A stretch of 64,000 nucleotides of DNA from positions 191,164,925-191,228,924 of the forward strand of contig CM041782.1 in the NCBI GenBank assembly GCA_023374045.1. Direction: 5' to 3'. The stretch is from Limonium bicolor (Eukaryota > Streptophyta > Magnoliopsida > Caryophyllales > Plumbaginaceae). Below, piece after piece: positions 18,989 through 44,099 of the stretch (position 1 is its first letter; the number at the start of each line of letters is the position of its first letter). The translations under genes were made by a program, and so were the position numbers. The notes beneath the pieces were generated by a model. That model saw nothing but the letters and a program-made list of their open reading frames with translations, was not told the DNA's origin and ran no database searches.

Positions 18989-18993
18989 AACTT
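18989..18993. repeat. Target site duplication of E1 (AACTT), left
   Basis: AACTT directly before TGAAATACCCC; the same five bases follow the right LTR at 33447-33451. Confidence 0.9.
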
Positions 18994-19471
18994 TGAAATA
19001 CCCCAAACTTAGATATGGTGTTTAAATGATAAACTAAGATATAAGGAGGCTAAATAATGCCTTAGAAACATTAAGAAACGTTTCTAATCAAAGAAAATAT
19101 AAGGAAACACCAAAAGAGCAGTTTAAGCAAAACGTGCTCTAAGCTTGGAGAGATATGGGAGAGTACCCAAATATTGTCCCAAGACCTTAGTATATCCTAA
19201 TGGTCATTTTAAGTCAATTACCAAAGAAAACCAAGCTTGAAAACAAGTTAAAACACAAAATGTGCTTTAAGGAGTCTTAAAGCACGTTTTTGAAAAATTG
19301 TCTTGTAAATGAGTTTTGAATGGCTAAATGTCCATCATTACTCTTTAATTAATATGTGTACTATATAGTATCACATTTGGAGGTCTATATTAATGGGAAA
19401 TCAAAAATTTCACAACAATGTGCCTTGTTTTTGATGATAGTGAATTTTTAAGCTAGTTTATAACATAAGTC

Positions 19472-19478
19472 TATATAA
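19472..19478 (+). promoter_or_regulatory. Putative TATA box of the E1 LTR
   Basis: TATATAA within GTCTATATAAGTGAG, about 480 bases into the LTR. The same sequence is in the right LTR near 29798. E2 has the weaker CAATATAAGTGAG at the matching place. If used, most of the 4.1 kb LTR would be transcribed R and U5. Confidence 0.55.
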
Positions 19479-21309
19479 GTGAGACATTTGGTCAATAAAG
19501 AATAAACTACCCTCATCACTAGAAGGGGGCCGGTTTCTTAAGGGTGAGTCACCACCTTTATGACTCATTAAGTGATTAAGGAAGCAAATAAGTCTTTTAA
19601 AGCCTAAAATACTATTCACCTTTCTACATAATATCTCACCTTTAGTGATTCTCTCTCCTCACTTCTTCATTGTTCCTTGTTCACACGGTTTTCTTGCTCT
19701 CTTTCTCTTCTCCATTAACGTGAAGCACCTCTCCATGCTAGCTCCATCTTCTCTTGCACACATCTTGCTCATTTAAGCTCCAAATCCAAACAAAATACAT
19801 ATTCTTCTTAGTTAGCTCAAGCTCCTCCTTTCTATCTTTTCAAAACTTCAAGAGCTCCATTTTGGTGCCAAGTCAAACCACCATTAGAGGAGGAAATTCA
19901 AGTTTGGAGACTCCATTGGCATCTCCATTCTCTTAAGGTAAAGAAAGTGTAAGAAAAACTAGGTTTCCACCATTTTCTTCACTTGACCGAGAATATATAC
20001 TCATGGGACTCCATGTTTATGCCTTGTTCTAGCTTGTTTCTACTCTTCAAAGGAGAGAGGAGGTCCTTCTTGCTTCACATCCAAGTTTGTCTTGAGAAAC
20101 CAAGGTAAAACAATCACATTAATACCTTAAAACATATTTTTAAACCTAGGGTTTGTTCCTTAGGGTTAATGTGTTATCTAGTACTCATTGGAGTCATTGG
20201 ATATTGGGTAGAACATTTGCAAGGAGAATCACATTGGTGACCGAGATTGAACAAAGAAAACCTAAGGAGAAAAGCTTGTAAGCTTGTGAGAAAACAAGGT
20301 AAATTGCTTACCTTAAGGTGTCTTGTTGTTTAAGGAATGAGATGTGGGTAAATGATGAGCTTAGTGTTTAGTTTATGTGTGGAAGGTGCTATTAAAACCT
20401 AGGAGAACAATGTCTATACTTGTGAACTTGTGACTAAGGAGCAAATGAGAAAGGAGATAGTTTAAGAATATAAAGGTGAAGTACAAGAAGCATTTTTATT
20501 TCAATGGGAGCCTTGTTGAGTGTATTCGCAGGTTGAAGGCATATATATGTGGAAATTCAGTGGTTAAGATTATTGTTATTTAAGGGCCTAAGTGCCAAGC
20601 ATTTTTAAGTTCAAGCGTTATATGATGATGGGTGAAGTTTTAGTGTAAATTGGGTGCTAAGGTGTTGTGATGAGAATTTGTGTGGTATTGGTTGTTTGAT
20701 GGAGAAAAACCATTTGTTAGGAAGTACTATATACTAGAGAACCCATGGCAAAATTTAAAGGAAGTTTAAGTGTTTAAGATATCCTAAGGGAATTTAAGAC
20801 TAAGAAGTACTAGGAATGTTCTATGGGTTGCCTTGATGAAAAAGGGTGAAGTTAAGATGTTTTAATGACTTATGATGACTTAGGTATCACCATGGAATAT
20901 TTAGGAATCAAAAATGTATTTGGGTATTTAGACTTAGGCAAATGTTGGTGTACATCTAGGAAGGAAATAATGTGATGATGATGGAAGTTTAGACTGTTAA
21001 GGAACTTTAAGTGAATGCTTAAAAGAGTTTAGATAAGTGAGAGATGCTTGGGAGATGATGTTATAGTGATGAGGAAGCATTGGCATAGAGGTTACATTAG
21101 GTGTGAACCACCACCTAGAAACCTAGTGAAAAACATTATAAGAAGTTGGCATTATTACAATGAAAATGCATAATGATCAAGGTGGATATTGGTGAGTGAT
21201 TTGATGGTTTTAGAGGAATGTTAAAGTGTATTTGAGGGACCTAAATGAGGTTGGAACATAATAGTATACATGGGAAGAGTTTGGAGTTGAAAGAACATAT
21301 TATAGAAGA

Positions 21310-21595
21310 ATCTGTAGTGGACCGACCCAGGGACCGACCCAGTTCTGGGTCGGTCGGACCTTGTTAACCCAGCAGAAATGTTTCGGTAATAGACCGACCC
21401 ATAAGGATGGGTCGGTCGGTGGTCGGTCGGGCAAGGTTTAACGAAGGAAAATGTCTCGGCAGAGGACCGACCCAGAGGGCTTTGGGTCGGTCGGTTTAGC
21501 TTTGGGTCGTCGGGGATTTCCAAAGGAGGGGAAAGTTTCGGTAATGGACCGACCCATAAGGTTGGGTCGGTCGGTGGGTCGGTCGACCCTTAACA
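21310..21595. repeat. E1 intra-LTR array: ACCGACCCA ... TGGGTCGGTCGG foldback units
   Basis: Four or five units of roughly 70 bases each contain GGACCGACCCA, a short spacer, and the reverse complement TGGGTCGGTCGG, separated by sequences like GTTTCGGTAATGG. A poly-A run follows. The right LTR has the same array at 31655-31912. ACCGAC or its complement GTCGGT occurs about eleven times. Confidence 0.9.
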
Positions 21596-23132
21596 CAAAA
21601 AAAAAAAAAGAAGAAATTTTAATTTCTAAGGATGTTAATTGGTAATAAAGTGTGCCATTAATAGGATGTTGATGATTAGGACCCTAAGAACTTAAGTAAT
21701 TAAGTTAAGAATATGTATAAACCTTAATGTTTAAAATTAAGTTATAAGGTTGAATGGCAATGGCCTAAGAGGGTATCGAATGGGGATTTATAGGGACTAA
21801 GTAAGTTAAGAAAGGTACAAATAACTAATGACCTAAAAATGAATGAATGTTCTAGGTTTGTGAGTTGGGACCCCGAAGAAGATTAGTCAAACACGATCGA
21901 CGGTGAACGGTACAATCCTTTTCGTGACCTGCTTGCTAACGAGGTGTCCCTCGGCTTGTGTGCTATCTGTTTATTTGCTATGACTAAACAAGATAAAGCA
22001 TGCAACCGGTTATATTGCTCTCGTTGCGATTGTGTTACATTTACACTAACCCGCGAAGCTTGAGATTGTTACTAACCAAGGTTAGTACCTATTGAGTTAA
22101 GGTTGAGAACTAAGTATCGTTGATTGTTGGTTTTACCCTTCAAGGTTTAACTAACACTTGGAAAATAAGGCTTTCACTAACCATAACTTGGGGTGGGAGT
22201 GAATCCGGAATGGTACCGGCACATGTTATTGGGGGAGGTCGGTATCTGAATCAGATCCCTTCCAAATAAGACTGGTCATTAGACTCGTCGCCTAGGGTCA
22301 ACAAATTGACCCGACCACCCGGGCTACTGTTCGAGGTGGGAGGCACATTAAGGAAGGCGTGGAGGGATCAAGCCTACATCCCTATTAAGTTAAGGAAGGT
22401 AGCTTATCGTCGGATAGTGCACTGCTACCGGCTAGGGTTAACCAGCCCTACAAAGATAAGCAACCAATTAAGGGCTAACCAATCTAATAGTGGAGAGGTT
22501 GGCAAGTATAAGTTTGAGATTAAGATTAAGGTAAATTAAGGAACTGAGGACTGAGGCAGGGGATTATTAACCCACTTGTTAAGGGAACGCTTGAGTCGTT
22601 CATTGGTTGTGAATTATAAATGTTCATCTGGTGGTTATTGTTATTGCACTTCATATTATGTTTGCATATGTAATCAATTTCCATGCTATCGACAATTAGT
22701 CGTCGTAGCCCCGTTAGCTTGGGGGCCATGAGAGGGTGTACCAGCATTCGTGCTGACCCCCCCTCGGGGGCTATTTTTACACTTGCAGGTAAGAGGCCCA
22801 TGAGGACGCACCACGAGAGTAGGAGCGGTTAGATTTAGGTTGGGACGTTTGTTTTGAGTTCGGGTTGCGCCTGTGCACCCGACTGTTCATATTAAAATGT
22901 TGTAAGTTTGAGATTATGATTGTGATACTAGTACTCGGATGGTCGTGGGATTGTGGATGTTATTGTTTTGAGCTGGATAATATTTGGTTAAGTATTGTAT
23001 ATATTAAGCCGGTATGTTCTAACGATCAGACCGTGGCAAGGTCCAAGTGTTGTATATTTCCGCTGCGATGTTCTCGATTAGGAGTTCAGATTGCGATAAC
23101 CACGATAGGCTTTGGATGGGGTGTTACAAAAG

Positions 23133-23144
23133 TGGTATCAGAGC
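23133..23144 (+). promoter_or_regulatory. E1 primer binding site, initiator tRNA-Met type
   Basis: TGGTATCAGAGC, four bases after the LTR end, is the usual primer site of plant chromoviruses. An untranslated leader of about 215 bases runs from here to the gag start. Confidence 0.93.
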
Positions 23145-23358: not shown

Positions 23359-24613
23359 ATGGCAGGACGCCCTAGAGGAGGCCGAGGTCGCGGCCGGGGT
23401 GAGGATATTCCAGATATACCTGGAGGGCAGACGATCGCAGAGATCGTAGCTGCCGCTTTAGGGCACATGGGCTATCAGCCCGGTGTGGGTGCACCACCTC
23501 CACCGCCACACCTAGGGAACCCAACTGGGTGAAGAGTCTGTCAGATCTTCGACCCGCACAATTCAAGGGGGAGACCGATCCCGCCAAGCTTGAGGCGTAC
23601 ATCTCCGAGCTGGAGACCGCCTTCGAGACCCTTGATGTCCCTGCTGGGATCAAGGTGCGCTTAGCTGCTTTCTACCTGAAGGGGGCGGCGGGCGATTGGT
23701 GGAAGCTGGTGAGGGCCGAGCATGTGGCCAACCCAGAGTTCGGCTGGGAGCAGTACACCGCCTTGCTACGGGCAAAGTACTATCCCGCCCATGTCCAGAC
23801 GAAGAAGCGCTTGCAGTTAGATGCGCTTAAGCAGTCGGACAAGATGACGGTGGACGAGTATTACTCAGAGTTCACCGCCTTGCTCCGTCTTCTGCCAGGT
23901 CTAGGGTATTCTGACCAGATCTTGGTAGACCGCTTCTATGGCGGGCTTAGCCATCGACTCCGCTACGGCATGGGGCCGACTAGTTACACTACCTTGCAGG
24001 AGTGCTATCATGCCGCTGCTAAGGTCGAGATTACCGTCCAGCTGAGGGACGAGGAGAATGCTAAGAGGAAGAGTGCCGGTAAAGCTCAGAGAGTCAAGGG
24101 CAAGGAGGGTACAAGAAACAGAAGTACCAGCCTCAGGCCCAGAAGAATCAGAACCCGAAAGGGAAGGAGGGAAAGGAGAAGGCTCCGGAAGAGCCATTGA
24201 AACTGACATATGCTTATGCAGCTACACCCCTGCGCTCTAAGGCGCCGAAGGGATCTGAGACCGAGAAAGGAGCCGGTGGTGGCTACCAACGACGCTACAT
24301 TTGTAGATGGTGTCACAAGGACCACCCCGGGCTCGACTGTAAGGGGAACAAAGTAGAGTGCAACTTCTGCGGAGTACTTGGACACCGAGCATATGAGTGC
24401 TACGGGAATCCAGAGAGTAAGAATTTCAGACCCAGTTTCAAAGTTAAGGCCAAGGCTGATCAGGGATCCGGATCAGACGGTCAGAGGAGGGGGCAACCAG
24501 CAGCAGACAAGAACCCAAGGGTGACCCAGAAGACGGGGCCCACTCTACACATGGTGGATCGGGACGATGAGCCTGAGCCCTCATCGAGGCCAGGTACCAT
24601 TATAACTATTTAG
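23359..24613 (+). pseudogene. gag: E1 Gag, two single-base frameshifts
   Basis: Gag forms the capsid and binds genomic RNA. The start at 23359 (ATGGCAGGACG) matches the E2 start and opens a basic Gly/Arg-rich head (RGGRGRGRG). The capsid domain follows (LEAYISELETAFETL, AAGDWWKLV), then a Lys/Gln-rich linker and a zinc knuckle CNFCGVLGHRAYEC (CX2CX4HX4C) preceded by a second Cys/His cluster (CRWCHKDHPGLDC). Compared with E2, one base is lost near 23503 and another near 24082, splitting it into three frames. Gag ends at a stop at 24611-24613, six codons past a GT donor-like site at 24594. The two gag introns of E2 are absent here. Confidence 0.88.
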
Positions 24614-25621
24614 TAACAAAACTACCTGCTTACCGCATTATCATGCATGTTTGGTGAAATATATGAGTTAAGTAAAAATAAGATGAGACTAGAACCTAAG
24701 TAAGATATAACCTACTACCACTCTAGGAAAATTCAACATCTGCTACCCTATACCATCTACATCTAACCCGGAGCACACCGACATCGAAACCACACACTTT
24801 CCAACCGAACAATGTCAGGTTATCCGCCCAGGTATGATCTTATTAAGGGGATACCTGACACCCGACGCACAAATAGCCATCATCAGAAGATGCAATCAAC
24901 TAGGAATGGGACCGGGAGGTTTTTACACACCGGAGTACCCAGGGGGAGCAAGGATGAAATTAAAGATGATGAGCTTGGGCAAGGATTGGAATCCGTATGC
25001 CAAGAATTACCAAACCACAAGGGAGCAAGATGGAGTCTCACCACCGGGGATACCCGAAGAGTTCCATCCAGTTATTACACAAATCGTGGAAATCGCTCAG
25101 CAGTTGGAGGCTGAACCGATTCCAGACATCCAGCCAGACATTTGCATTGTAAACTTCTATGAAAAAGATGGAAAACTGGGACTACACCAGGATAAGGACG
25201 AGACAACGGAGTCTCTCGAGAGAGGGATACCCGTAGTGTCTTGGTCCATTGGAGATGATGCGGAATTTTTATACGGCGAGCAGAAGCGTGCGGACCGTGC
25301 AGATAAGATAATACTTAAGTCAGGTGATGTATTAATTTTGGGAGGAGAATCAAGGATGTTGTACCATGGGATTAAGAGAATCAAGCTGAATACAGCACCG
25401 TCAGCAGTAATCAATGCGACGCACATGAGACCAGGAAGATTAAACTTAACCTTTAGACAATATTAGCCGTGTAATGTTAGAATGAGATGAGAAATGAGAT
25501 GTAAGATTGAAGCACATGTTGTAAACAGGATGGTTATAAATAAAATAACAGTGTTGTTCATATAAATTGTTACGACTCTTGTTATGCCATCAATACTCAT
25601 GGAGCTTGTGAACACAATTAG
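24594..25621 (+). other. E1 candidate intron (GT-AG, 1028 bp) housing the AlkB-like gene
   Basis: CCAG/GTACC at 24591-24598 resembles a donor, and CACAATTAG/GTTATGG at 25613-25628 an acceptor. Joining the flanks puts gag (ending ...SSRP) in frame with the protease frame (...LGTEGALS), which is open back to this acceptor and closed by a TGA just before it. E2 has both sites at the same places (39384-40407) with the same phase. Unspliced RNA would stop Gag six codons into the interval. Splicing itself is inferred, not observed. Confidence 0.6.
24834..25466 (+). CDS. AlkB-like 2-oxoglutarate/Fe(II) dioxygenase inside E1
   Basis: The 210-residue product is a whole AlkB-type domain. AlkB enzymes oxidatively remove methyl groups from bases in DNA or RNA, using Fe(II) and 2-oxoglutarate. 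Residues 107-109 (NFY) precede the HxD iron motif at H118/D120 (LGLHQDKDE); the distal histidine is H178 (GGESRMLYHGI); the 2-oxoglutarate arginines are R202 and R208 in RLNLTFRQY at the C-terminus. These motifs are nearly those of bacterial AlkB, and overall it looks closest to the plant ALKBH1-like clade. An upstream ATG at 24812, the start used in E2, is out of frame because of one extra base near 24838. No target peptide or membrane segment is seen. E2 carries a homologue at 39599-40252 at the same place. It was probably captured from a host gene; substrate and expression are unknown. Confidence 0.9.
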   Translation: MILLRGYLTPDAQIAIIRRCNQLGMGPGGFYTPEYPGGARMKLKMMSLGKDWNPYAKNYQTTREQDGVSPPGIPEEFHPVITQIVEIAQQLEAEPIPDIQPDICIVNFYEKDGKLGLHQDKDETTESLERGIPVVSWSIGDDAEFLYGEQKRADRADKIILKSGDVLILGGESRMLYHGIKRIKLNTAPSAVINATHMRPGRLNLTFRQY

Positions 25622-28600
25622 GTTATGGACTCGGTACGGAAGGTGCACTAAGCATACTCACAGAGGCACAGGCCGACGTTAGCGGTACTATCCTCACCGG
25701 CACCTTTCCGATCAATGGAATTGAGGCATCAGTTCTCTTCGACTCAGGGGCCTCGCATACCTTTGTCTCTGCATCATTCGCGAGCAGGTTGGGGCTAGAC
25801 GCTGATGAGCTACCCGACTTACACTCACGTTACTCACCCTCTAAGGAGAATGGTTCGTTGCACTCGTTACTACCAGGAGCCACCATCAGAATTAAGGGGG
25901 AAGACTTCCAGTTAGTTTCATTGAGTTCAGTAAGCTAGGATTTGATGTTATCTTCGGGATGAACTGGTTGGAGCGGCACAAGGGACGTATCCTCTGCGCC
26001 GACATAGATTGCTGCTCAGGAGTCCATCTGGGGTAAACAATTCATCCGCCATAGGCCCAGAGAGCCTTCGACTAAGATCATCACCGCCATGGCAATGCAA
26101 AGAGAAATAAGGAGAAAGGAAGAAGTATACCTCTGCTATGTACAGGACATAGAGAGAGACCCTGAGTTCGACCCCGACTTACCGGTAGTGTCGGAGTTCC
26201 CCGACTTATTTCCACGGGAACTGCCCGGCATGCCACCCACTCGGGAGGTAGAGTTCACCATTGAGCTGCTGCCTGGTACCGGACCGATAGCCAAAGCACC
26301 ATATCGTATGGCTCCGGCAGAAATGACTGAATTAAAAGAACAACTGAAAGATTTGTTGGATAAAGGATTTGTCAGACCAAGTGTGTCACCATGGGGAGCG
26401 CCAGTCCTCTTCGTGAAGAAGAAGGATGGTAGCCTCCGCCTCTGCATCGACTACAGAGAGTTGAATGCAGTGACAGTGAAGAATAAGTACCCACTACCCC
26501 GCATTGACGATCTGTTCGATCAGTTGAAGGGAGCATCTGTGTTTTCCAAGATTGATCTCAGATCGGGGTATCATCAGATAGCCATTAAGGAGGGAGACAT
26601 TGAGAAGACGGCATTCCGGACACGATACGGCCACTATGAGTTTACAGTGATGCCGTTCGGTTTGTCGAACGCACCGCGAAGTTTATGGATCTGATGAACC
26701 GCTTGTTCCGGGAGCAGCTGGACAAGTCGGTTGTGGTTTTTATTGATGATATATTGATATATTCAAAGTCTAAGATTGAGCATGAGGAACATTTGAGAAA
26801 GGTGTTGGAAATATTAAGGGAGAACCAGCTATATGCTAAGTTCTCCAAGTGTGAGTTTTGGCTTGACCAGGTCTCTTTCCTAGGTCATGTCATCTCAGAT
26901 GCTGGGATCGCAGTGGATCCAGCAAAGATTGATGCCGTACGTACCTGGCCAAGGCCGAAGACAGTTACCGACATCAGGAGCTTTCTCGGTCTGGCAGGTT
27001 ACTACAGGAGGTTTGTTAGAGATTTCAGCAAGGTCGCAAGCCGATGACCAGTCTGATGAAGAAAGATGCACCATTTCTGTGGACAGTCGACTGTGAGAGA
27101 TCATTTCAGCGCTTGAAGGACTCACTGACCACTGCACCGGTACTGACCATTCCAGACGGTACAGAGGGCTTTGAGGTTTATTGTGATGCATCCGGCAGAG
27201 GGCTGGGTTGCGTGCTCATGCAACATGGCAAGGTGGTGGCATATGCCTCACGCCAGTTGAAGAAACATGAGGAGAACTACCCCACACATGATTTAGAGCT
27301 GGGAGCTGTAGTCTTCGCTTTGAAGATATGGCGCCACTACTTATATGGGGTTAGTGTCACGATCTACACCGATCACAAAAGTTTGAAATATATATTCACT
27401 CAGAAGGAGTTAAATCTTCGACAGAGGAGATGGTTAGAATTTCTGAAAGACTATGACATTGACCTCCAATACAAAGAAGGGAAGGCCAATGTTGTAGCAG
27501 ATGCCCTGAGCCGTCGAGCACACTCACTCCATTCGCTAGTTTCTTTCTCCAGCTTGGTCGATGAGGTGCGAGAGGCTCAGAGGACTGATGAGTATATAGA
27601 GAGGTCAGACAGAAGCTGACAGATGGTACCTTTGAGAGTCAGAAATACGACTTCAGACTTCATGATGATGATCTGATCAGACTTAAGGGCCGATTATGCA
27701 TACCACGAGGTAACACGGATCTGAAAGACCGTATACTTAGAGAATCACACTGTTCTTCAGTTTCCATCCATCCGGGAGCCTCTAAAATGTATAAAGACAT
27801 GAAGAGATACTTCTGGTGGTCGGGGATGAAGACAGATGTTACCGAGTTCGTCTTGAGGTGTCTCACATGCCAGAAGGTGAAATTCGAGCACAGACGACCG
27901 GGCGGAATGGTACAGTCGATGCCAGTTCCGGAGTGGAAGTTCCATGATATCTCCATGGACTTCGTAGTTGGGCTTCCACCTGCTAGGGGAGGTCTCAACA
28001 TGATATTGGTGGTGGTGGATCGCCTTACCAAAGTAGCCCGATTCATACCGATGAAGGATACTTGGAAGGTGACCAAATTAGCTGAGTTATTTGAGAAAGA
28101 AATCATGAGGCACCACGGCATACCAAAGACCATAGTGTCAGATAGAGATACCAGATTCCTTTCGAGGTACTGGAGAGCTACCAGAGAAGCGTTGGGTACA
28201 GAACTCAAGCTGAGTACCGCGTTCCATCCTCAGACAGATGGTCAGACTGAGCGTACTATTCAGACACTCGAGGACATGCTGAGAGCATGTGCCTTAGACT
28301 TCCAGGGCAGTTGGATTGACAGATTGCATCTGATCGAGTTTTCATACAACAACAGCTATCACGCTTCGATCAAGATGGCACCTTTTCAAGCGTTGTACGG
28401 TAGACCATGTCGTACACCGCTCTGCTGGGATGAGTCGAGTGAGACGGTCATCATAGGACCAGAGTACTTAGAACAAGTTCAGGCTGAAGTTCAGCAAATC
28501 AGGGAGAACATGAAAGCTGCTCAAGATAGGCAGAAGTCGTATGCTGATGTTCGACGACGAGACCTGGAGTTCGCAGTGGGCGACCAGGTATTTCTGCGAG

Positions 28601-28998
28601 TATCACCGATGAAGGGTGTATTTAGGTTTGGGCAGAAGGGCAAGTTAAGCCCGAAATTTGTTGGTCCTTATGAGATTACGGAGCGGGTGGGCCCGGTTGC
28701 TTACAGGTTAAATTTACCTGCTGAGCTGGGTAAAGTGCATGATGTCTTTCATGTTTCACAGCTGAAGAAATACATGCACCACCCCTCCCACGTGTTAGAA
28801 CCTGAGAGGTTGACCTTAGAACCAAATATGAGATCCGTGGAGACTCCTCAGAGAATCTTGGACAGAAAGACTAGGGACACTCGCCACAAGTCAGTGCGAC
28901 TGGTGAAGGTTCTCTGGTCTAACCAAGATGTCGAAGAGGCCACGTGGGAATTAGAGGATAAGATGAGGGCGAAGTACCCTTCTTTATTTACTGACTAG
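25622..28998 (+). pseudogene. pol: E1 Pol: protease, RT, RNase H, integrase, chromodomain (several frameshifts)
   Basis: The protease is near 25665-26080 with LFDSGASHTF and FDVIFGMNWL. The reverse transcriptase runs about 26300-26990 with LCIDYRELN, and has FIDD as its catalytic box near 26740. RNase H is at about 27150-27530 ([35 protein letters not shown]). Integrase has an HHCC zinc finger (about 27700-27880), the catalytic DDE residues in SMDFVVGLP, VSDRDTRF and [11 protein letters not shown], then FVGPYEITERVG. The chromodomain lies at about 28900-28995 (VKVLWSNQDVEEATWELE). Integrase from 27787 to the stop at 28998 is one open frame. Upstream, single-base losses relative to E2 near 26673, 27031 and 27600, and more in the protease (25830-26045), break the frame. 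The chromodomain and Pol order identify a Tekay/Del-type chromovirus. Confidence 0.92.
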
Positions 28999-29299: not shown

Positions 29300-29316
29300 T
29301 TTTAAGGGGGGTAGAT
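29300..29316 (+). promoter_or_regulatory. E1 polypurine tract
   Basis: TCTTTTAAGGGGGGTAGAT immediately upstream of the right LTR; it would prime plus-strand DNA synthesis. Confidence 0.9.
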
Positions 29317-32300
29317 TGAAATACCCCAAACTTAGATATGGTGTTTAAATGATAAACTAAGATATAAGGAGGCTAAATAATGCCTTAGAAACATTAAGAA
29401 ACGTTTCTAATCAAAGAAAATATAAGGAAACACCAAAAGAGCAGTTTAAGCAAAAACGTGCTCTAAGCTTGGAGAGATATGGGAGAGTACCCAAATATTG
29501 TTCCAAGACCTTAGTAATATCCTAATGGTCATTTTAAGTCAATTACCAAAGAAAACCAAGCTTGAAAACAAGTTAAAACACAAAATGTGCTTTAAGGAGT
29601 CTTAAAGCACGTTTTTGAAAAATTGTCTTGTAAATGAGTTTTGAATGGCTAAATGTCCATCATTACTCTTTAATTAATATGTGTACTATATAGTATCACA
29701 TTTGGAGGTCTATATCAATGGGAAATCAAAAATTTCACAACAATGTGCCTTGTTTTTGATGAATAGTGAATTTATTAAGCTAGTTTATAACATAAGTCTA
29801 TATAAGTGAGACATTTGGTCAATAAAGACTAAACTACCCTCATCACTAGAAGGGGGCCGGTTTCTTAAGGGGTGAGTCACCACCTTTATGACTCATTAAG
29901 TGATTAAGGAAGCAAATAAGTCTTTTAAAGCCTAAAATACTATTCACCTTTTTACATAATATCTCACCTTTAGTGATTCTCTCTCCTCACTTCTTCATTG
30001 TTCCTTGTTCACACGGTTTTCTTGCTCTCTTTCTCTTCTCCATTAACGTGAAGCACCTCTCCATGCTAGCTCCATCTTCTCTTGCACACATCTTGCTCAT
30101 TTTAGCTCCAAATCCAAAACAAAATACATATTCTTCTTAGTTAGCTCAAGCTCCTCCTTTCTATCTTTTCAAAACTTCAAGAGCTCCATTTTGGTGCCAA
30201 GTCAAACCACCATTAGAGGAGGAAATTCAAGTTTGGAGACTCCATTGGCATCTCCATTCTCTTAAGGTAAAGAAAGTGTAAGAAAATCTAGGTTTCCACC
30301 ATTTTCTTCACTTGACCGAGAATATATACTCATGGGACTCCATGTTTATGCCTTGTTCTAGCTTGTTTCTACTCTTCAAAGGAGAGAGGAGGTCCTTCTT
30401 GCTTCACATCCAAGTTTGTCTTGAGAAACCAAGGTAAAACAATCACATTAATACCTTAAAACATATTTTTAAACCTAGGGTTTGTTCCTTAGGGTTAATG
30501 TGTTATCTAGTACTCATTGGAGTCATTGGATATTGGTTAGAACATTGGCAAGGAGAATCACATTGGTGACCGAGATTGAACAAAGAAAACCTAAGGAGAA
30601 AAGCTTGTAAGCTTGTGAGAAAACAAGGTAAATTGCTTACCTTAAGGTGTCTTGTTGTTTAAGGGAATGAGATGTGGGTAAATGATGAGCTTAGTGTTTA
30701 GTTTATGTGTGGAAGGTGCTATTAAAACCTAGGAGAAACAATGTCTATACTTGTGAACTTGTGACTAAGGAGCAAATGAGAAAGGAGATAGTTTAAGAAT
30801 ATAAAGGTGAAGTACAAGAAGCATTTTATTTCAATGGGAGCCTTGTTGAGTGTATTCGCAGGTTGAAGGCATATATATGTGGAAATTCAGTGGTTAAGAT
30901 TATTGTTATTTAAGGGCCTAAGTGCCAAGCATTTTTAAGTTCAAGCGTTATATGATGATGTGGTGAAGTTTTAGTGTAAATTGGGTGCTAAGGTGTTGTG
31001 ATGAGAATTTGTGTGGTATTGGTTGTTTGATGGAGAAAAACCATTTGTTAGGAAGTACTATATACTAGAGAACCCATGGCAAAATTTAAAGGAGAGTTTA
31101 AGTGTTTAAGATATCCTAAGGGAATTTAATGACTAAGGAAGTACTAGGAATGTTCTATGGGTTGCCTTGATGAAAAAGGGTGAAGTTAAGATGTTTTAAT
31201 GACTTATGATGACTTAGGTATCACCATGGAATATTTAGGAATCAAAAGAATGTATTTGGGTATTTAGGACTTAGGCAAATGTTGGTGTACATCTAGGAAG
31301 GAAATAATGTGATGATGATGGAAGTTTAGACTTGTTAAGGAACTTTAAGTGAATGCTTAAAAGAGTTTAGATAAGTGAGAGATGCTTGGGAGATGATGTT
31401 ATAGTGATGAGGAAGCATTGGCATAGAGGTTACATTAGGTGTGAACCACCACCTAGAAACCTAGTGAAAAACATTATAAGAAGTTGGCATTATTACAATG
31501 AAAATGCATAATGATCAAGGTGGATATTGGTGAGTGATTTGATGGTTTTAGAGGAATGTTTAAAGTGTATTTGAGGGACCTAAATGAGGTTGGCATAATA
31601 GTATACATGGGAAGAGTTTGGAGTTGAAAGAACATATTAATAGAAGAATCTGTAGTGGACCGACCCAGGGACCGACCCAGTGGGTCGGTCGGACCTTGTT
31701 AACCCAGCAGAAATGTTTCGGTAATAGACCGACCCATAAGGATGGGTCGGTCGGTGGGTCGGTCGGGCAAGGTTTAACGAAGGAAAATGTCTCGGCAGAG
31801 GACCGACCCAGAGGGCTTTGGGTCGGTCGGGGAATTTCCAAAGGAGGGGAAAGTTTCGGTAATGGACCGACCCATAAGGTTGGGTCGGTCGGTGGGTCGG
31901 TCGACCCTTAACACAAAAAAAAAAGAAGAAATTTTAATTTCTAAGGATGTTAATTGGTATTAAAGTGTGCCATTAATAGGATGTTGATGATTAGGACCCT
32001 AAGAACTTAAGTAATTAAGTTAAGAATATGTATAAACCTTAATGTTTAAAATTAAGTTATAAGGTTGAATGGCAATGGCCTAAGAGGGTTCGAATGGGGA
32101 TTTATAGGGACTAAGTAGTTAAGAAAGGTACAAATAACTAATACCTAAAAATGAATGAATGTTTAGGTTTGTGAGTTGGGACCCCGAAGAAGATTAGTCA
32201 AACAACGATCGACGGTGAACGGTACAATCCTTTTCGTGACCTGCTTGCTAACGAGGTGTCCCTCGGCTTGTGTGCTATCTGTTTATTTGCTATGACTAAA

Positions 32301-33446
32301 ACAAGATAAAGCATGCAACCGGTTATATTGCTCTCGTTGCGATTGTGTTACATTTACACTAACCCGCGAAGCTTGAGATTGTTACTAACCAAGGTTAGTA
32401 CTATTGAGTTAAGGTTGAGAACTAAGTATCGTTGATTGTTGGTTTTACCCTTCAAGGTTTAACTAACACTTGGAAAATAAGGCTTTCACTAACCATAACT
32501 TGGGGTGGGAGTGAGGAATCCGGAATGGTACCGGCACATGTGTATTGGGGGAGGTCGGTATCTGAATCAGATCCGACTTCCAAATAAGACTGGTCATTAG
32601 ACTCGTCGCCTAGGGTCAACAAATTGACCCGACCACCCGGGCTACTGTTCGAGGTGGGAGGCACATTAAGGAAGGCGTGGAGGGATCAAGCCTACATCCC
32701 TATTAAGTTAAGGAAGGTAGCTTATCGTCGGATAGTGCACTGCTACCGGCTAGGGTTAACCAAGCCCTACAAAGATAAGCAACCAATTAAGGGCTAACCA
32801 ATCTAATAGTGGAGAGGTTGGCAAGTATAAGTTTGAGATTAAGATTAAGGTAATTAAGGAACTGAGGACTGAGGCAGGGGATTATTAACCCACTTGTTAA
32901 GGGAACGCTTGAGTCGTTCATTGGTTGTGAATTATAAATGTTCATCTGGTGGTTATTGTTATTGCACTTCATATTATGTTTGCATGTAATCAATTTCCAT
33001 GCTATCGACAATTAGTCGTCGTAGCCCCGTTAGCTTGGGGGCCATGAGAGGGTGTACCAGCATTCGTGCTGACCCCCCCTCGGGGGCTATTTTTACACTT
33101 GCAGGTAAGAGGCCCATGAGGACGCACCACGAGAGTAGGAGCGGTTAGATTTAGGTTGGGACGTTTTTTTTGAGTTCGGGTTGCGCCTGTGCACCCGACT
33201 GTTCATATTAAAATGTTGTAAGTTTGAGATTATGATTGTGATACTAGTACTCGGATGGTCGTGGGATTGTGGATGTTATTGTTTTGAGCTGGATAAATAT
33301 TTTGGTTAAGTATTGTATATATTAAGCCGGTATGTTCTAACGATCAGACCGTGGCAAGGTCCAAGTGTTGTATATTTCCGCTGCGATGTTCTCGATTAGG
33401 AGTTCAGATTGCGATAACCACGATAGGCTTTGGATGGGGTGTTACA
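29317..33446 (+). mobile_element. E1 3' LTR
   Basis: The LTR is 4130 bases, co-linear with the left LTR including the array (31655-31912) and the GGTGAACGGTA motif near 32212. It ends GGGGTGTTACA and is followed by AACTT, the target duplication. Confidence 0.93.
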
Positions 33447-33451
33447 AACTT
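33447..33451. repeat. Target site duplication of E1 (AACTT), right
   Basis: Matches 18989-18993. Confidence 0.9.
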
Positions 33452-33621: not shown

Positions 33622-36600
33622 TGAAATACCCCAAACTTAGATATGGTGGTTAAATGATAAACTAAGATATAAGGAGGCTAAATAATGCCTTAGAAACATT
33701 AAGGAACATTTCTAATCAAAGAAAATATAAGGAAACACCAAAAGAGCAGTTTAAGCAAAAACGTGCTCTAAGCTTGGAGAGACTTGGGAGAGTACCCAAA
33801 TATTATTCTAAGACCTTAGTAATATCCTAATGGTCATTTTAAATCAATTACCAAAGAAAACCAAGCTTGAAAACAAGTTAAAACACAAAATGTGCTTTAA
33901 GGAGTCTTAAAGCACATTTTTGAAAAATTGTCTTGTAAATGAGTTTTGAATGGCTAAATGTCCATCATTACTCTTTAATTAACATGTGTACTATATAGTA
34001 TCACATTTGGAAGTCTATATCAATGGGAAATCAAAAATTTCACAACAATGTGCCTTGTTTTGTGAACAGTAAATTAATTAAGCTAGTTTATAACATAATT
34101 CAATATAAGTGAGATATTTGGTCAACAAAGACTTAAGTACCCCTTGTTACTAATGGGGGCCGGTTTCTTATAAGGTGAGTCACCACCTTCATGACTCATT
34201 AAGCAAATAAAGACTTATAAAGCAAAAGTACTATTCACCTTTTAACATAAATATCACACTTTACTTACCTCTCTCCTCATCTCTTCATTCTCCATCTTCT
34301 CCATCGGTTTTCTTTGCTCTCTTTCTTCTCCCTCACGTAAAACTCAACCTCCATGCTAGCTCCATCTAGCTTTGCACACATCTTGCTCATTTTAGCTCCA
34401 AAACCAAAACTAAGTACATATATCTCTTAGTTAGCTCAAGCTCTTCCTTTCTATCTTTTCAAAACTTCAAGAGCTTCATTTTGGTGCCAAGTCAAACCAC
34501 CATTAGAGGAGGAAATTCAAGTTTGGAGACTCCATTGGCTTCTCCATTCTCTTATGGTAAAGAAAGTGTAAGAAAATCTAGGTTTCCATCATTTCTTTCC
34601 TTGTCCGAAAATTTGCACTCATGGGACTCCATGTTTATGCCTTTTTATAGCTTGTTTTCTACTCTTCAAAGGATTAAGGAGGTCCTTCTTGCTTCATATC
34701 CAAGCTTGTCTTGAGAAACCAAGGTAAAACAATCACCTTAATACCTTAAAGCACATTTTTAACCTAGGGTTTGTTCCTTAGGGTTAATGTATTATCTAGT
34801 ACTCATTGGAGTCATTGGATATTGGTTAGAACATTGGCAAGGAGATATATATTGGTGACCGAGTTTGAGCAAGGAAAAACCTAAGGAAGAAAGCTTTTAA
34901 AGCTTGTAAAAGAACAAGGTAAATTACTTACCTTAAGGTGTTTTATTGTTTAAGGGAAAGAGATTTAGATATGTGATGAGTTTAGTAGAGAGTTTACATT
35001 AGAAAAGGGTTATATATAACCTAGGAGAAACAATGACTATACTTGTGAACTTGTGACTAAGGAGCAAATGAGAAAAAGAGATAGTTTAAGGATATCAAGG
35101 TGAATTACAAGAAGCATTTAGTTTCAATGGGAGCCTTGTTGTGTGTATTCGCAGGTTGAAGACAAATATATGAGGAAATTCAGTGGTTAAGATTATTGTC
35201 ATTTAAGGGCCTAAGTGCCAAGCATTTAAGTTTATGCACTATAAGATGGTGCGGTGTAGTTTTGGTGTAAATTGTGTGTTAAGATGTTGTAATGAGAATT
35301 TGAGTGATCTTGGTTGTTTAATGGTGAAAAACCAAGTGGTTGGGTGTAACAATATACTAGAGAACCCATGGCAAAATTTAGTGAAGAACCTAAGTGTTTA
35401 AGATGTTCTAAGGAGATTTCATGACTAAGGAAGTACTAGGAAGTTTTAGAGGTTGTCTTGATGAAAAAGGGGTGAGTTTAAGGTGTTTAATGAGTTAGAA
35501 TGACCTAGACATGATCATGGGGGATTTAGGAATCAAATGAATATACTTGAGTATTTAGAACTTAGGCAAATGTTGGTAAACAACTAGGAAGGAAATAATG
35601 TGTTGATGGATGGAAGTTTAAGCTTGTGAAGGAACTTTAAGTAAATGCATAAAAGAGTTTTAGATGGTGAAAGATGCTTGGGAGATGATGTTATAGTGGT
35701 GGGGAAAACATTTGGCATAGTGGTTACTTTAGGTATGAACCACCACCTAGAAAGCTATTGGAAAACATTACAAGTGTTGGCATTATTACAAGGAAAAATG
35801 CATAATGATTAAAGTGGATGTTGGTGAGTGATTTAAAGTGTTTAGTGGTTGGTTTAAGGTGTATTTGAAGTGCCCAAATGAGGTTATAACATATTAGGAT
35901 ATATGAGGAGAAGTATGGAGTTGAAAGAGAATTTAGAAATAAGGTTCTGGAGCCGACTGACCTTAGGACCGGACCTGCAAGGTCGGTCGAGCTCAGATTA
36001 CACTACCGGAGAAAGTCTCTGGAACCGACTGAACTTGGGGACCGGACTTGCAAGTTCGGTCGGGCTTGTATTTTGTGAAGGAAATAAGTCTCTGGAATCG
36101 ACCGAACATGGGACCGGACTTGGCAAGTTCGGTCGAGCTTAAATTTCCCACGGGGGAAACTCTCGGGAATGGACCGACCTTGGGACCAGACTTGCAAGGT
36201 CGGTCGGGGTAGAATTTTCAAGCGGTAATATGTTCTGGAACGGACCGACCTTGGGTAAGGTCGGTCGGAAGTTCGGTCGAGCCTAAAAAAAAAAGAAATA
36301 TTGAATTCTAAGAATGGTAATAGGTAATAAGGTATACCTTTGGTAGGGTGGTAATGATTAGGACCCTAAGAACTTAAGGGATTAAGTTAAGTTAAGTATA
36401 AATTTTAATGTTTAAAGTTAAGTTTGTAAGCTAAGTGGAAAAGACTTGAGAGGTTATTGAATGGGAATCTTTAGGGACTAAGTGAGTTAAGTAAGGTGCA
36501 AATAACTAATGACCTAAAAATGAACCAATGTTTTAGGTTTGTGAATTGGGACCCCGAAGAAGGTTAATCAAACAACGATCGACGGTGAACGGTACAATCT

Positions 36601-37745
36601 TTCTTGTGACCTGCTTGCTAACGAGGTGTCCCTCGGCTTGTGTGCTATCTGTTTAATTGCTATGACTAAAACAAGATAAAGCATGCAACCGGTTATATTG
36701 TTCTCGTGGTGTATGTGTTATATTTACACTAACCCGCGAGACTTGAGATTGTTACTAATCAAGTTTAGTACTTACTGAGTTAAGAATAAGAGTTAAGTTT
36801 GGTGGTTGTTGGTTAATGCCCGTTAGGGCTTAGCTAGCACATGGTGATTAAGATTTTTACTAACTGGAACATGAGTGAGGAAACCCGGGACCGATCTCCG
36901 GTCATGCATGCTAAGGAAAAAGGGGGACGGTATCTGAATCAGATCCGCCCTCCGCTTAAGGACTTGTCTTCGGACTTGTAGCCTAGGGCCGGTTGCCGGC
37001 TCAGCTACGCTGGACTCCCGTCCAGAGTAGGTGGCATTAAGATGGTCCGTTGGGATCACCTAAATCCCAGGTTCGAATTAAGCTACAACCACTCCCTTCC
37101 AGGAACGGTTTGTATACTGAGATTAAGATTAAGGTAAGGTAAGGAACTGAGATTAAGGAAATGAGGACTAAGGAGGGGGTTACTAACTTACTTGGCAAGG
37201 GAACGCTTGAATCGTTCATTGTTTGTGAACTATATATGTTCATCTGTGGTTATTGTTATTGCACTTCATATTATGCTTGTGTATGTAATCAATTTCCATG
37301 CTATCGACAATTAGTCGTCGTAGCCCCGTTAGCTTGGGGGCCATGAGAGGGTGTACCAGCATTCGTGCTGACCCCCTTTGGGGGCTGTTTTTACACTTGC
37401 AGGTAAGAGACCCATGAGGACGCAATACGAGAGTAGGAGCGGTTAGACTTAGGATGGGATATTTATTTTGAGTTCGGTTTGCGCCTGTGCACCCGTCTGT
37501 TTATATTTAAACTGATGTAAGGTTATGACTATATCTTAGCTATTTGTACTCGGTTGGTTGTGGTATTATGGATGGTGATGTTTCGAGTTGGTTAAGTATT
37601 TTGGATAAGTATTGTAAATGTTAAGGCCGGTATATTCTAATGATCAGACCGTGGCAAGGTCCAGGTGTTTATTATCTCCGCTGCGACGTATTCGATTAAG
37701 GGTTTAGTTTTGCGATAACCACGATTGGCTTTGGATGGTGTTACA
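33622..37745 (+). mobile_element. E2 5' LTR
   Basis: The LTR starts TGAAATACCCC and ends GGTGTTACA, and aligns with the E1 LTR throughout except for the array at 35945-36285. Donor-like AAGGTAAAAC and ACAAGGTAAATT sites and the TATTCGCAG acceptor-like site are kept. Open frames within it are chance. Confidence 0.93.
35945..36285. repeat. E2 intra-LTR array: five units with CGACCGAxCTTGGGACCGGAC ... GGTCGGTCG
   Basis: Five units of about 65-75 bases each start with a variant of TCTGGAACCGACCGACCTT, contain GACCGGACTTGCAAG, and end with the complementary GGTCGGTCG, then a short linker; a poly-A run follows. Copies are at 46368-46705 in the right LTR and 53690-54035 in the duplicated LTR. Confidence 0.9.
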
Positions 37746-37750
37746 AAAAG

Positions 37751-37762
37751 TGGTATCAGAGC
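37751..37762 (+). promoter_or_regulatory. E2 primer binding site, initiator tRNA-Met type
   Basis: TGGTATCAGAGC, five bases after the LTR end. Confidence 0.93.
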
Positions 37763-37980
37763 GTAGTTACGCTCTGATCAAGAAATACCGGACATGAGTA
37801 ACCACCGAGTTAGGATATAAGTTAAGGAATAAGTGATGGGTTAAGGGTGTGAGAAGTTAGAGTGAGTAGAGTCAGATGACCACTAATAAGTGTGGATCGT
37901 CTTTACCGTCTACGGACGTTATAAATTCGTTAACCGAAACAGTGGTGAATACGAATCTAATGTGAGTTATGCTTGTTCAG

Positions 37981-39403
37981 ATGGTAGGACGTCCTAGGGG
38001 AAGCCGAGGTCGCGGCCAAGGTGATGATGCTTCAGGAATACCTGGAGGGCAGACGATCGCAGAGATCGTAGCTGCCGCATTAGGGCATATGGGCTATCAG
38101 CCTGGTGTGGGTGCACCACCTCCACCGCCACAACCCAGGGAACCAAATTGGGTGAAGAGTCTTGCAGATCTTCGACCCGCGCACTTTAAGGGGGAGACCG
38201 ATCCCGCCAAGCTTGAGGCGTACATCTCCGAGCTGGAGACCGCCTTCGAGACCCTTGATGTCCCTGCTGGGATCAAGGTGCGCCTGGCTGCTTTCTACCT
38301 GAAGGGGGCGGCAGGCGATTGGTGGAAGCTGGTGAGGGCCGAGCATGTGGCCAATCCAGAGTTCGGCTGGGAGCAGTACACCGCCTTGCTACGCGCAAAG
38401 TACTACCCCGCCCATGTTCAGACGAAGAAGTGCTTGCAGTTGGATGCGCTTAAGCAGACGGACAAGATGACAGTGGACGAGTATTACTCAGAGTTCACCG
38501 CCTTGCTCCGTCTTCTGCCAGGTCTTGGATATTCTGACCAGATCCTGGTGGACCGCTTCTATGGCGGGCTTAGCCATCGACTCCGCTACGGCATGGGGCC
38601 GACGAGTTACACTACCTTGCAGGTAATAAGAATGATTGAGATTTGAGTAAGTAATGAGTAAGATTTATATTATGAGAAATAAGAGTGACTAATACTATGG
38701 AAAAGCAGGAGTGCTATCACGCCGCAGCTAAGGTTGAGATAACCGTCCAGCTGAGGGACGAGGAGAATGCTAAGAGAAAGAATACTGGTAAGAGCTCGGA
38801 GAGTCAAGGGCAAGGAGGGTACAAGAAACAAAAGTACCAGCCTCAGGCCCAGAAAAATCAGAACCCAAAGGGGAAGGAGGAAAAAGAGAAGGCTCCGGAA
38901 GAGCCATTGAAGTTGACATATGCTTATGCAGCTACACCCCTGCGCTCTAGGGCGCCAAAGGGTAAGGAATTGATATTGAATGAGTTAAGAAACAAATTAG
39001 TAACCGTTTGAGATATGAGAATTGACATTATGAATCATCAGGACCTGAGACTGAGAAGGGAGCCGGTGGTGGCTACCAGCGACGCTTCATCTGTAGGTGG
39101 TGTCACAAGGACCACCCCGGGCTCGATTGTAAAGGGAATAAGGTGGAGTGCAACTTTTGTGGAGTGTATGGACACCGGGCATATGAGTGTTACCGGAACC
39201 CTGCTAGCAGAGCCTATAGGCCCGACACCAGGGGCAAGGGTAAGACCGATCAGGGAGCTGGATCTGACAGTCAGAGGAAGGTGCAGCAGGCGGCGGACAA
39301 GAACCCACGGGTGACCCAGAAGTCGGGACCCACATTACACATGGTGGACCGGGACGATAAGCCTGAACCCTTATCGAGGCCAGGTACCACTATAACCATT
39401 TAG
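37981..39403 (+). CDS. gag: E2 Gag, three exons by comparison with E1
   Basis: Exon 1 (37981-38622) encodes the basic head (RPRGSRGRGQG) and capsid domain (LEAYISELETAFETL). Exon 2 (38709-38961) encodes the Lys/Gln-rich linker beginning ECYHAAAKVEI. Exon 3 (39042 onward) encodes both Cys/His clusters, including CNFCGVYGHRAYEC. Removing 38623-38708 and 38962-39041 gives a continuous frame co-linear with E1, whose gag is contiguous at exactly these two points. No frameshift is needed in E2 gag. Without further splicing Gag stops at 39401-39403; with the donor at 39384 it would continue into protease. Gag packages the element RNA. Confidence 0.85.
38623..38708 (+). other. E2 gag intron 1 (86 bp, absent from E1)
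   Basis: TTGCAG/GTAATAAG opens it and AAAAGCAG/GAGTGC closes it. The E1 sequence reads TTGCAGGAGTGC straight through. The interval is AT-rich, has in-frame stops, a length not divisible by three, and a GACTAAT branch-point-like motif about 20 bases before the end. Confidence 0.8.
38962..39041 (+). other. E2 gag intron 2 (80 bp, absent from E1)
   Basis: CCAAAGG/GTAAGGAA opens it and AATCATCAG/GACCTGAG closes it. E1 reads CCGAAGGGATCTGAG continuously. It is AT-rich with stops in frame and its length is not divisible by three. Confidence 0.8.
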
Positions 39404-40407
39404 TAGTAAAAATTACCTCCTTACCGCATTATCATGGCATGTTTGGTGAATAAATGAGTTAAGTAAGAAGATGAGATTAGAACTAAGTAAGATATAACCT
39501 ACACCACTTTAGGAAGCTTCAGCATCTGCTATCCAATACTATCTACACCTAACCCGGAGCACACCGACATCGAAAACCATAGACTTTCCAACTGAACAAT
39601 GTCAGGTTATCCGCCCAGGTATGATTTATTAAGGGGATACCTGACACCCGAAGCACAAAATAGCCATCATCAGAAGATGCAATCAACTAGGAATGGGACC
39701 GGGAGGTTTTTACACACGGAGTACCCAGGGGGAGCAAGGATGAAATTAAAGATGATGAGCTTGGGCAAGGATTGGAATCCGTATGCCAAGAATTACCAAA
39801 CCATGAGGGTGCAAGATGGAGTCTCACCACCGGAAATACCCGAAAAGTTCCATCCAGTTATTACACAAGTCGTGGAAATCGCTCAGCAATTGGAAGCTGA
39901 ACCGATTCCAGACATACAAGCAGACATTTGCATTGTGAACTTCTACGAGAAGGATGGGCGACTTGGACTACACCAGGATAAGGACGAGACAACGGAGTCT
40001 CTCGAAAGAGGGATACCCGTAGTGTCTTGGTCCATTGGGGATGATGCAGAGTTTTTATACGGCGAGCAGAAGCGTGCGGACCGGGCGAATAAGTTGGTAC
40101 TTAAGTCAGGAGATGTATTAATTATGGGAGGAGAATCAAGGATGTTATACCATGGGATTAAGAGAATCAAGCTGAATACAGCACCGTCAGCAGTAATCAA
40201 TGCGACGCATATGAGACCAGGAAGATTAAACCTAACCTTTAGACAATATTAGCCATGTAATGTTAGAATGAGATGAGAAATGAGATGTAAGATTAAAGCT
40301 CATGTTGTAAAAAGGATGGTTATAAATAAAATAACAGTGTTGATCATATAAATTGTTACGACTCTTGTTATACCATCAATACTCATGAAGCTTGTGAACA
40401 CAATTAG
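39384..40407 (+). other. E2 candidate intron 3 (GT-AG, 1024 bp) housing the AlkB-like gene
   Basis: CCAG/GTACCAC and CAATTAG/GTTATGG are conserved with E1. Removing the interval joins exon 3 to the protease frame (LGTEGALIILTEAQAD) in phase. The non-coding parts, about 195 bases before and 155 bases after the AlkB frame, are closely similar in the two elements. Confidence 0.6.
39599..40252 (+). CDS. AlkB-like 2-oxoglutarate/Fe(II) dioxygenase inside E2
   Basis: This 217-residue frame is homologous to the E1 protein at 24834-25466. It keeps the HxD iron motif (H125, D127 in LGLHQDKDE), the distal histidine H185 (GGESRMLYHGI) and the two 2-oxoglutarate arginines R209 and R215 (RLNLTFRQY). Residues about 20-39 differ completely from E1: one extra base near 39660 and one missing base near 39718 shift this stretch out of frame and back. 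Elsewhere about a dozen residues differ from E1, none in the catalytic motifs. The start MSGYPPRYD has an out-of-frame counterpart in E1 at 24812. Role as for E1: a probable nucleic-acid demethylase captured from the host; its substrate is unknown. Confidence 0.88.
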   Translation: MSGYPPRYDLLRGYLTPEAQNSHHQKMQSTRNGTGRFLHTEYPGGARMKLKMMSLGKDWNPYAKNYQTMRVQDGVSPPEIPEKFHPVITQVVEIAQQLEAEPIPDIQADICIVNFYEKDGRLGLHQDKDETTESLERGIPVVSWSIGDDAEFLYGEQKRADRANKLVLKSGDVLIMGGESRMLYHGIKRIKLNTAPSAVINATHMRPGRLNLTFRQY

Positions 40408-43788: not shown

Positions 43789-43800
43789 ATCGTCTGTATA

Positions 43801-43835
43801 GGGTACGGGGCGTACCCCTTTTTAAGGGGGTAGAA
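43801..43835 (+). promoter_or_regulatory. Conserved inverted repeat plus second polypurine-like tract, E2
   Basis: GGGTACGGGGCGTACCCC followed by TTTTTAAGGGGGTAGAAC, 12 bases after the pol stop; counterpart of 29011-29046 in E1. Confidence 0.7.
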
Positions 43836-44082
43836 CTTCCTCGCTTTTGAGTTAGGAAACGATCATGTTTGTCGTTTGTTTGGTTGTTTAAGATGTGAAT
43901 TTGTGTAAGTTGCTACATTTTGGTGTTAAGTTTGAGTTATGTATAATACTTATGTATTGTAATTGAGATTGACTTTTGAGTCTTGAGGTGTGTGAATGTG
44001 AATATAAGATGTGGTGTTAAGATTAAGGAAATTGAGTACCGTGAATGGTTAAGCACATATGTGAACTTTGAGGACAAAGTTC

Positions 44083-44099
44083 TTTTAAGGGGGGTAGAT
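44083..44099 (+). promoter_or_regulatory. E2 polypurine tract
   Basis: CTTTTAAGGGGGGTAGAT directly before the right LTR. Confidence 0.9.

Follow-up and report, generated by a model that had tools for sequence, protein, structure and literature searches.

An LTR retrotransposon of putative chromovirus type in Limonium bicolor, E1, carries a gene for an AlkB-type 2OG-Fe(II) dioxygenase between its gag and its protease. The same slot is occupied by AlkB in a second, diverged element family of this genome; the active site is intact, the modelled fold is that of OsALKBH1 and E. coli AlkB, near-identical copies are many, and the gene is under purifying selection in the elements. The explanation that best covers the whole, and that we favor with some reserve, combines an old capture, a cassette exon and a demethylase working in the particle.

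The element and its neighbors

E1 lies in the window (by which we mean the whole 64,000-nucleotide stretch of DNA that was analysed) and is recognizable as an LTR retrotransposon by its two LTRs (each about 4.13 kb long), target-site duplication, primer-binding-like site, purine tract, gag and pol (Table 1). The preliminary description had placed an AlkB gene between gag and protease of an element with both LTRs and a target duplication: the order of the Pfam matches bears this out, and AACTT is found on both sides. The Retrotrans_gag match (5.7e-18) falls within 23529-24200; the protease of the neighboring element E2 (40398-41117), which is the counterpart of E1's broken protease region, matches RVP_2 at 1.1e-25; a chromodomain-like match follows the E1 integrase (Pfam Chromo 6.8e-5, 23.1 bits, below the cut-off of 25.1). 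The preliminary description called E1 a Tekay chromovirus, a clade label that is treated here as putative. The primer-binding-like sequence is one that we take to be of the initiator Met tRNA type.

Table 1. Features of E1 and E2, in window coordinates
Feature	Position	Strand	Basis or remark
E1 target-site duplication AACTT, 5' copy	18989..18993	+	end sequences
E1 5' LTR, TGAAATACC...TGTTACA	18994..23128	+	blastn, 98.2% against 3' LTR; ends inspected
E1 PBS-like TGGTATCAGAGC	23133..23144	+	sequence inspection
E1 gag (capsid and zinc-knuckle tail), one frame break; frame reaches candidate donor 24593/24594	23529..24593	+	Pfam
E1 candidate intron 1, CCAG^GTACCA ... ACTCTAG^GAAAATTC	24594..24726	+	GC 0.32 against 0.56 in gag tail
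E1 AlkB N-terminal extension, FNICYP...RPG	24727..24833	+	frame open into AlkB; in gag phase if intron 1 is spliced
E1 AlkB-type 2OG-Fe(II) dioxygenase, 210 aa and stop	24834..25466	+	ORF, Pfam, fold
E1 AT-rich segment 3' of AlkB, ending in acceptor-like ACAATTAG^GTTATGG	25467..25621	+	GC 0.33
E1 possible donor GAT^GTAAGA	25501	+	inside AT-rich segment 25467..25621
E1 protease region, frame broken	25622..26088	+	E2 counterpart
E1 RT, RNase H, integrase, chromodomain-like C-terminus; four overlapping frames	26089..28998	+	Pfam
E1 polypurine-tract-like AAGGGGGGTAGAT	29304..29316	+	sequence inspection
E1 3' LTR	29317..33446	+	blastn against 5' LTR
E1 target-site duplication AACTT, 3' copy	33447..33451	+	end sequences
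E2, second element of E1's family; duplication GGAGC on both sides; 3' LTR start damaged	33622..48173	+	
E2 5' LTR	33622-37745	+	
E2 AlkB	39618..40252	+	protein 86% identical to that of E1 (residues 3-210, one frame)

Over about 4.1 kb, 18 substitutions and 36 indel events separate the two LTRs of E1; 26 of the indel events involve a single base. At a substitution rate of 1.3e-8, 18 substitutions make the insertion young, about 0.2 million years old. Frame breaks interrupt both gag and pol of E1; because the excess of indels suggests assembly errors, these breaks are not readable as decay and may themselves be errors of assembly. (A technical note: one-base indels in many of the family A loci described below, together with the preponderance of indels over substitutions in the E1 LTRs, suggest that errors of sequencing or assembly affect this genome.)

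The LTRs of E2 are about 12-13% different from those of E1, and frameshifting indels lie close to the start of its AlkB. Behind E2, a unit of some 7.3 kb that comprises the end of pol, the LTR and flank is tandemly duplicated (window 42420-57035); its copies, at about 42.4-49.7 and 49.7-57.0 kb, are 98-99% identical, and the LTR start is damaged in the first. A related stretch on the minus strand (57976-60382) has 73% nucleotide identity with E1 pol; no AlkB match was found in this stretch, which appears truncated before the AlkB region. Elsewhere in the window, direct repeats at 9377-10901 and 15505-16413 (94-99% identical) flank ORFs at 11169-14969 and are probably the LTRs of another element. 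The plus-strand ORF 11169-12029 resembles the gag of another LTR element, which we assume to be perhaps of Athila type, and contains a minus-strand match to Rfam snoR71 (11667-11773, 52 bits, cut-off 40); the snoR71 family may be element-derived. A tRNA scan of the window returned no genes.

Copies in the genome and a second family

The genome that was searched comprises 2.92 Gb in 2686 contigs. Query P0001 drew 50,395 candidates at first look; the 150 best of them, which were scored, are all 97-100% identical and belong to what is here called family A; 149 of these 150 have no in-frame stop, but a sample of the best 150 is biased to intact copies and is neither a copy number nor an unbiased sample. 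Twenty-eight of them, 3.6 kb each (L004-L031, L004 being E1), were examined as loci. With a host-type query, P0031, the best 150 of 47,656 candidates are near-full-domain matches at 52-57%, some of them with stops, and the eight that were fetched (L032-L039) turned out to be elements of another family, B; no ALKBH1 gene of the host itself came to light among these best 150.

All eight family B loci have the order gag, AlkB, protease (the gag tail was matched in all eight, the capsid in seven). Their AlkB is 61-65% identical to that of E1, their capsid pieces only 34-45% identical to the E1 capsid (the seven matched loci), and their protease 47-56% identical to that of E2, apart from one short piece at 81%: between the two families AlkB is better preserved than capsid and protease. 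Five of the eight match E1 RT at 74-79%; the exceptions are L035 (60% over a part), L038 (pieces at 37-89%) and L034 (unmatched). The preliminary description had weighed absence of AlkB from other copies, and a host-gene insertion confined to this one locus, against its own proposal: AlkB is present in E2, in the 150 scored family A matches, which were found by their AlkB, and in every family B locus fetched.

The gag tails of E1 and E2 (24251-24593 against 39041-39383) are 81% identical and their AlkB genes 94%; among 29 family A rows (27 loci, E1 and E2) the mean pairwise difference is 0.10 in the gag tail and 0.02 in AlkB. Two gag-tail types occur among the L004-L031 copies, which suggests recombination.

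The AlkB protein

The ORF that had been described at 24834..25466 is there: its 210 residues (246 with the N-terminal extension) match Pfam 2OG-FeII_Oxy_2 (PF13532) at 7e-46, with 157 bits against a cut-off of 31, from position 2 to position 194 of a 194-position profile, and all three of the motifs that had been picked out by eye (LGLHQDKDE, GGESRMLYHGI, RLNLTFRQ) are present. The iron ligands (HxD...H), the RxxxxxR motif and the 2OG-binding N/Y, that is, N107, Y109, H118, D120, H178, R202 and R208, are retained in all 29 family A rows.

Among solved structures, OsALKBH1 (5xeg, E 3.6e-73) and E. coli AlkB are the best relatives of E1 AlkB. A structure model built on 30 sequences (mean pLDDT 92.7) gives TM scores of 0.93 to OsALKBH1, 0.80-0.82 to E. 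coli AlkB and 0.58 to human ALKBH5; sequence identity is 52% to OsALKBH1 and 16% to ALKBH5 (7v4g_A). By its modelled fold and by sequence, therefore, the element AlkB belongs with OsALKBH1 and E. coli AlkB, apart from ALKBH5. With OsALKBH1 (PDB 5xeg, 5xoi) and plant proteins named ALKBH1C/1D (about 45-56% identity) it has in common its fold, its catalytic residues and the FDIC and RPGM landmarks. It nevertheless differs from its host relatives: the stretch from FDIC to PGM is 35 residues long instead of the 40-65 of ten host rows, an NRE stretch seen in six of those ten rows is missing (both by eye), and in a 45-row tree it sits on a long branch outside the host ALKBH1 rows.

A candidate cassette exon

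AlkB of E1 is flanked by AT-rich sequence: GC is 0.32 upstream and 0.33 downstream of the gene, which itself has 0.46, while the gag tail has 0.56 and the protease 0.51. The gene bounds first proposed for AlkB hold as an ORF from ATG 24834, but may not be the limit of its coding sequence, since the frame remains open, and host-like (FNICYP...), back to 24727, immediately after an acceptor-like ACTCTAG^GAAAATTC. The phases, worked out by hand, are these: the candidate donor falls between the first and second bases of a gag codon and each acceptor supplies the remaining two, so that the gag-AlkB and gag-protease joins are both in frame.

Family A has the donor and the first acceptor in 28 of 28 loci, E1 included, with intron lengths of 128-136; the second acceptor motif is likewise present in all 28, three of them with GTATGG after the AG and the others with GTTATGG or GTCATGG. 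From the first acceptor to the AlkB stop the frame is open in 17 of the 28 (15 of normal length, two one codon short), and small indels occur in this stretch in 11 of 28. The donor in family B is GTAAGC in 8/8 loci, in phase 1 in seven; the remainder at the first acceptor is 2 in all eight, and at the second acceptor 2 in all seven readable loci, one of the eight having CCCCAT in place of the AG before protease. One of the eight has a stop between the first acceptor and the AlkB stop. Intron 1 of family B is 133-137 nt long with a GC of 0.32-0.36, against 0.55-0.57 in the gag tail, and AT-rich flanks of AlkB are found in both families. CAG^GTACCA, the donor of family A, is a weak site: a coarse frequency matrix gives 25 GT sites a score above 4, and among these it ranks 17th. 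Splicing is supported mainly because place, phase and composition agree between two old families; as judged from these sequences, AlkB is probably a cassette exon in the element transcript.

Might the enzyme instead be made free of Gag, from ATG 24834, on subgenomic or unspliced RNA, the AT-rich flanks being leftover host or spacer sequence? The 210 residues that start at this ATG form a complete domain; the extension that precedes it shows no constraint in the E1-E2 pair (one synonymous and seven non-synonymous changes); and the AlkB of an orchid element occupies a separate ORF (PMC9289625). Free production is nevertheless harder to square with the retention of F-D/N-IC(Y/F)P in the upstream frame of E1, of the public ORF P0003 and of family B loci, and with the agreement of donor and acceptor positions and phases between the families; we consider it improbable on balance, although far from negligible.

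What the enzyme may do

The use that we propose for AlkB as a cassette exon runs as follows. In the distant past, a chromovirus-type LTR-retrotransposon lineage would have taken up an AlkB gene of the plant ALKBH1 type and have kept it in use, in the slot between gag and protease, ever since. The donor at the end of gag would be joined to the acceptor just 5' of AlkB to yield Gag-AlkB, ending at the AlkB stop; the same donor, joined to the acceptor before protease, would yield Gag-Pol, while unspliced RNA would yield Gag and double as genome. Gag would deliver the dioxygenase into the virus-like particle, where single-stranded RNA or cDNA of the element would be stripped of methyl groups (m1A, m3C or N6-methyladenine); this would help reverse transcription or allow escape from methylation-based control. 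Demethylation inside the particle is judged the most likely use, since that is where an enzyme fused to Gag would be carried; that a Gag-borne enzyme demethylates element RNA or cDNA in the particle, with benefit to reverse transcription or evasion of control, is a proposal whose chances we place somewhat short of even. Its fullest version, that for millions of years one cassette exon has yielded, beside Gag-Pol, a particle-bound Gag-ALKBH1-type enzyme that cleans genome RNA and first-strand cDNA, is more tentative still.

A serious rival, albeit an unlikely one, would direct the enzyme to host chromatin or host RNA, so as to counter silencing of the element much as rice ALKBH1 counters 6mA/PRC2 repression. 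Rice ALKBH1 takes 6mA off DNA that is single-stranded or in R-loops, and it restricts H3K27me3 (PMC10469495), and the element AlkB is OsALKBH1-type by its modelled fold (the protein of 5xeg and 5xoi may differ from the rice locus of PMC10469495); placement next to gag, on the other hand, would favor delivery to the particle. Alternatively, the cassette may be chiefly a splicing switch that sets the ratio of Gag to Gag-Pol, with the enzyme secondary: inclusion of the exon would stop translation at the AlkB stop and skipping would permit Gag-Pol, and Ogre and EVADE vary their products by splicing (PMC12786077, PMC6317226). This is a long shot, since a switch would not explain why the active site is conserved in full, and the fold with it.

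Selection on AlkB

Between E1 and E2, dS of AlkB is 0.18-0.19 and dN about 0.03, for a dN/dS of 0.16-0.18 (p 1.9e-7); the other dN/dS values for this pair are 0.07 for capsid, 0.13 for the gag tail, 0.42 for protease, 0.21 for the 5' part of RT, 0.07 for RT-RNase H and 0.08 for integrase. Between E1 and four family B loci (210 codons, no indel), dN/dS is 0.11-0.14 in three of four pairs, with dN 0.26-0.31 and dS 2.05-2.4, which is near saturation; the fourth pair is saturated. Five pairs within family B give 0.09-0.15 (the sixth pair differs in length). These A-B and within-B values come from a simple counting method that is rough at such divergence, and the B loci were ranked by similarity to P0031.

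Variants common to at least three copies among the 29 family A rows number four non-synonymous and 19 synonymous, and single-copy variants 20 and 39; the contrast between single and shared variants is not significant in these rows (p 0.18). Ranking loci by protein similarity lowers apparent dN in both genome samples and, since the 29 rows were picked by similarity to E1, weight is placed on the E1-E2 and A-B comparisons. AlkB is under purifying selection in the elements, and the earlier proposal that it is a kept module stands up in the other copies: dN/dS lies far from the value near 1, with loss of catalytic residues, that would have spoken for decay.

That AlkB is a passenger, a host gene recently transduced by chance, multiplied with the element and useless to it, is scarcely credible: plant LTR elements are known to capture genes, mostly in few copies (PMC7264820), and noisy gag and pol frames leave any single copy in doubt, but recent capture of this kind is rejected by the low dN/dS (between families at near-saturated dS) and by a second family with AlkB in the same slot, and both the better preservation of AlkB than of capsid and protease and the intact active site in 29/29 rows speak against it.

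Origin of the capture

The tree with host ALKBH genes that the preliminary description had called for separates the two: 26 hand-chosen host ALKBH1 rows, four of them untrimmed, stand on one side, and 19 rows from elements or unnamed public entries on the other. Of the 36 genome loci fetched, 13 are in the tree. Under midpoint rooting the split has 100/99 support, and its stem measures 0.61. Family A is supported at 100/99 and is joined by the public ORFs P0002 and P0005 (98/90); P0003 joins family B at 84/89, under the mark for firm support. A quick tree of 156 rows, thinned from 254 sequences, repeats the element-host split for six of these element or public rows (SH-aLRT 100), although the grouping of P0002-P0005 and P0117 is there partly by choice, because they were labelled element rows on similarity alone. 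In protein searches of 5.8 billion sequences P0002-P0005 rank above host proteins; P0002, P0004, P0005 and P0117 are public ORFs whose element membership is putative. P0003 has the 35-residue FDIC/FNIC-to-PGM stretch in common with E1 and (counted by hand) with family B, and weakly matches candidate intron 1 (8 of 2000 shuffles score as high, in one of three frames tried). As close relatives of A and B occur among public ORFs on other contigs, the sequences suggest that the capture probably predates the host species.

A viral-contig collection held no relative when searched with P0001 and with the integrase, and the AlkB profile found three loci there (L001-L003) at 30-38% identity, which were left out of the comparisons. 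A search of public protein sets for long fusions listed 50 proteins, and among these P0151 alone carries a precomputed gag domain: this 584-aa protein of Cinnamomum micranthum joins a retrotransposon gag to a host-type ALKBH1. It is read as a gene-model chimera or a separate event, because by eye its gag differs from that of E1 and its full N-terminus is host-type. A second AlkB clade, on a long branch within the grasses (P0041, P0053, P0056, P0090, P0008, P0033, P0070 and P0075), comes from Paspalum species and unnamed contigs; several of its proteins are 205 aa long, and P0090 represents 42 sequences. It is possibly another mobile-element capture.

Known systems and meaning

An AlkB in a plant LTR element is not wholly new: the general idea is already known from an orchid element published in 2022, the Phalaenopsis Gypsy_Pa_2799, which has its AlkB in a separate 565-aa ORF2 with gag-pol as one ORF, belongs to the Tat/Ogre lineage by its RT tree, and encodes an ALKBH5-type enzyme that is active on m6A in single-stranded RNA in vitro; AlkB-carrying copies were found in only two Phalaenopsis species of 121 genomes screened (PMC9289625). 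Among the matches listed in our search of freely readable papers, AlkB in an LTR element is found only there and in a citing review (PMC12786077). The two elements have much in common as described: both are Ty3/Gypsy with large LTRs, abundant in their genomes, and have a captured AlkB with intact Fe and 2OG ligands. They also differ: E1 is probably of chromovirus type, and its 210-aa AlkB, a candidate cassette exon represented in two families, lies in the gag-protease slot in E1, E2 and 8/8 family B loci. Its enzyme is OsALKBH1-type where that of the orchid is ALKBH5-type (the orchid AlkB is known here by description, with 7v4g_A as the stand-in for ALKBH5).

Plant flexiviruses are exogenous RNA viruses with AlkB domains and, exogenous as they are, resemble E1 as mobile RNA-using elements that own an AlkB; they are mentioned in connection with the orchid element (PMC9289625). 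Ogre elements have an intron in their coding region that is spliced from some transcripts (PMC6317226, PMC12786077); as described, it lies between gag-protease and RT, in another lineage and with no AlkB mentioned. Sunflower Tekay elements have other extra ORFs, at the 5' end, and the word demethylase is absent from that account (PMC11728184). As far as the searches show, what is new here is an OsALKBH1-type enzyme, an element of putative chromovirus type, the gag-protease slot, occurrence in two families that parted long ago, and a candidate cassette exon.

A single published case might be a curiosity; a second capture, of another AlkB subfamily by another element lineage, kept through deep divergence, suggests that erasure of methyl marks is a repeated need of plant retrotransposons. 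It provides a candidate for a Gag-delivered enzyme arising from alternative splicing in plants, and opens to test the question whether these elements are restrained by methylation of their RNA or cDNA. If the fullest version of the particle proposal is true, it and the ALKBH5 case of the orchid would together mean that retrotransposons have taken up nucleic-acid demethylases on two occasions or more, each time from a different subfamily, for repair or counter-defence.
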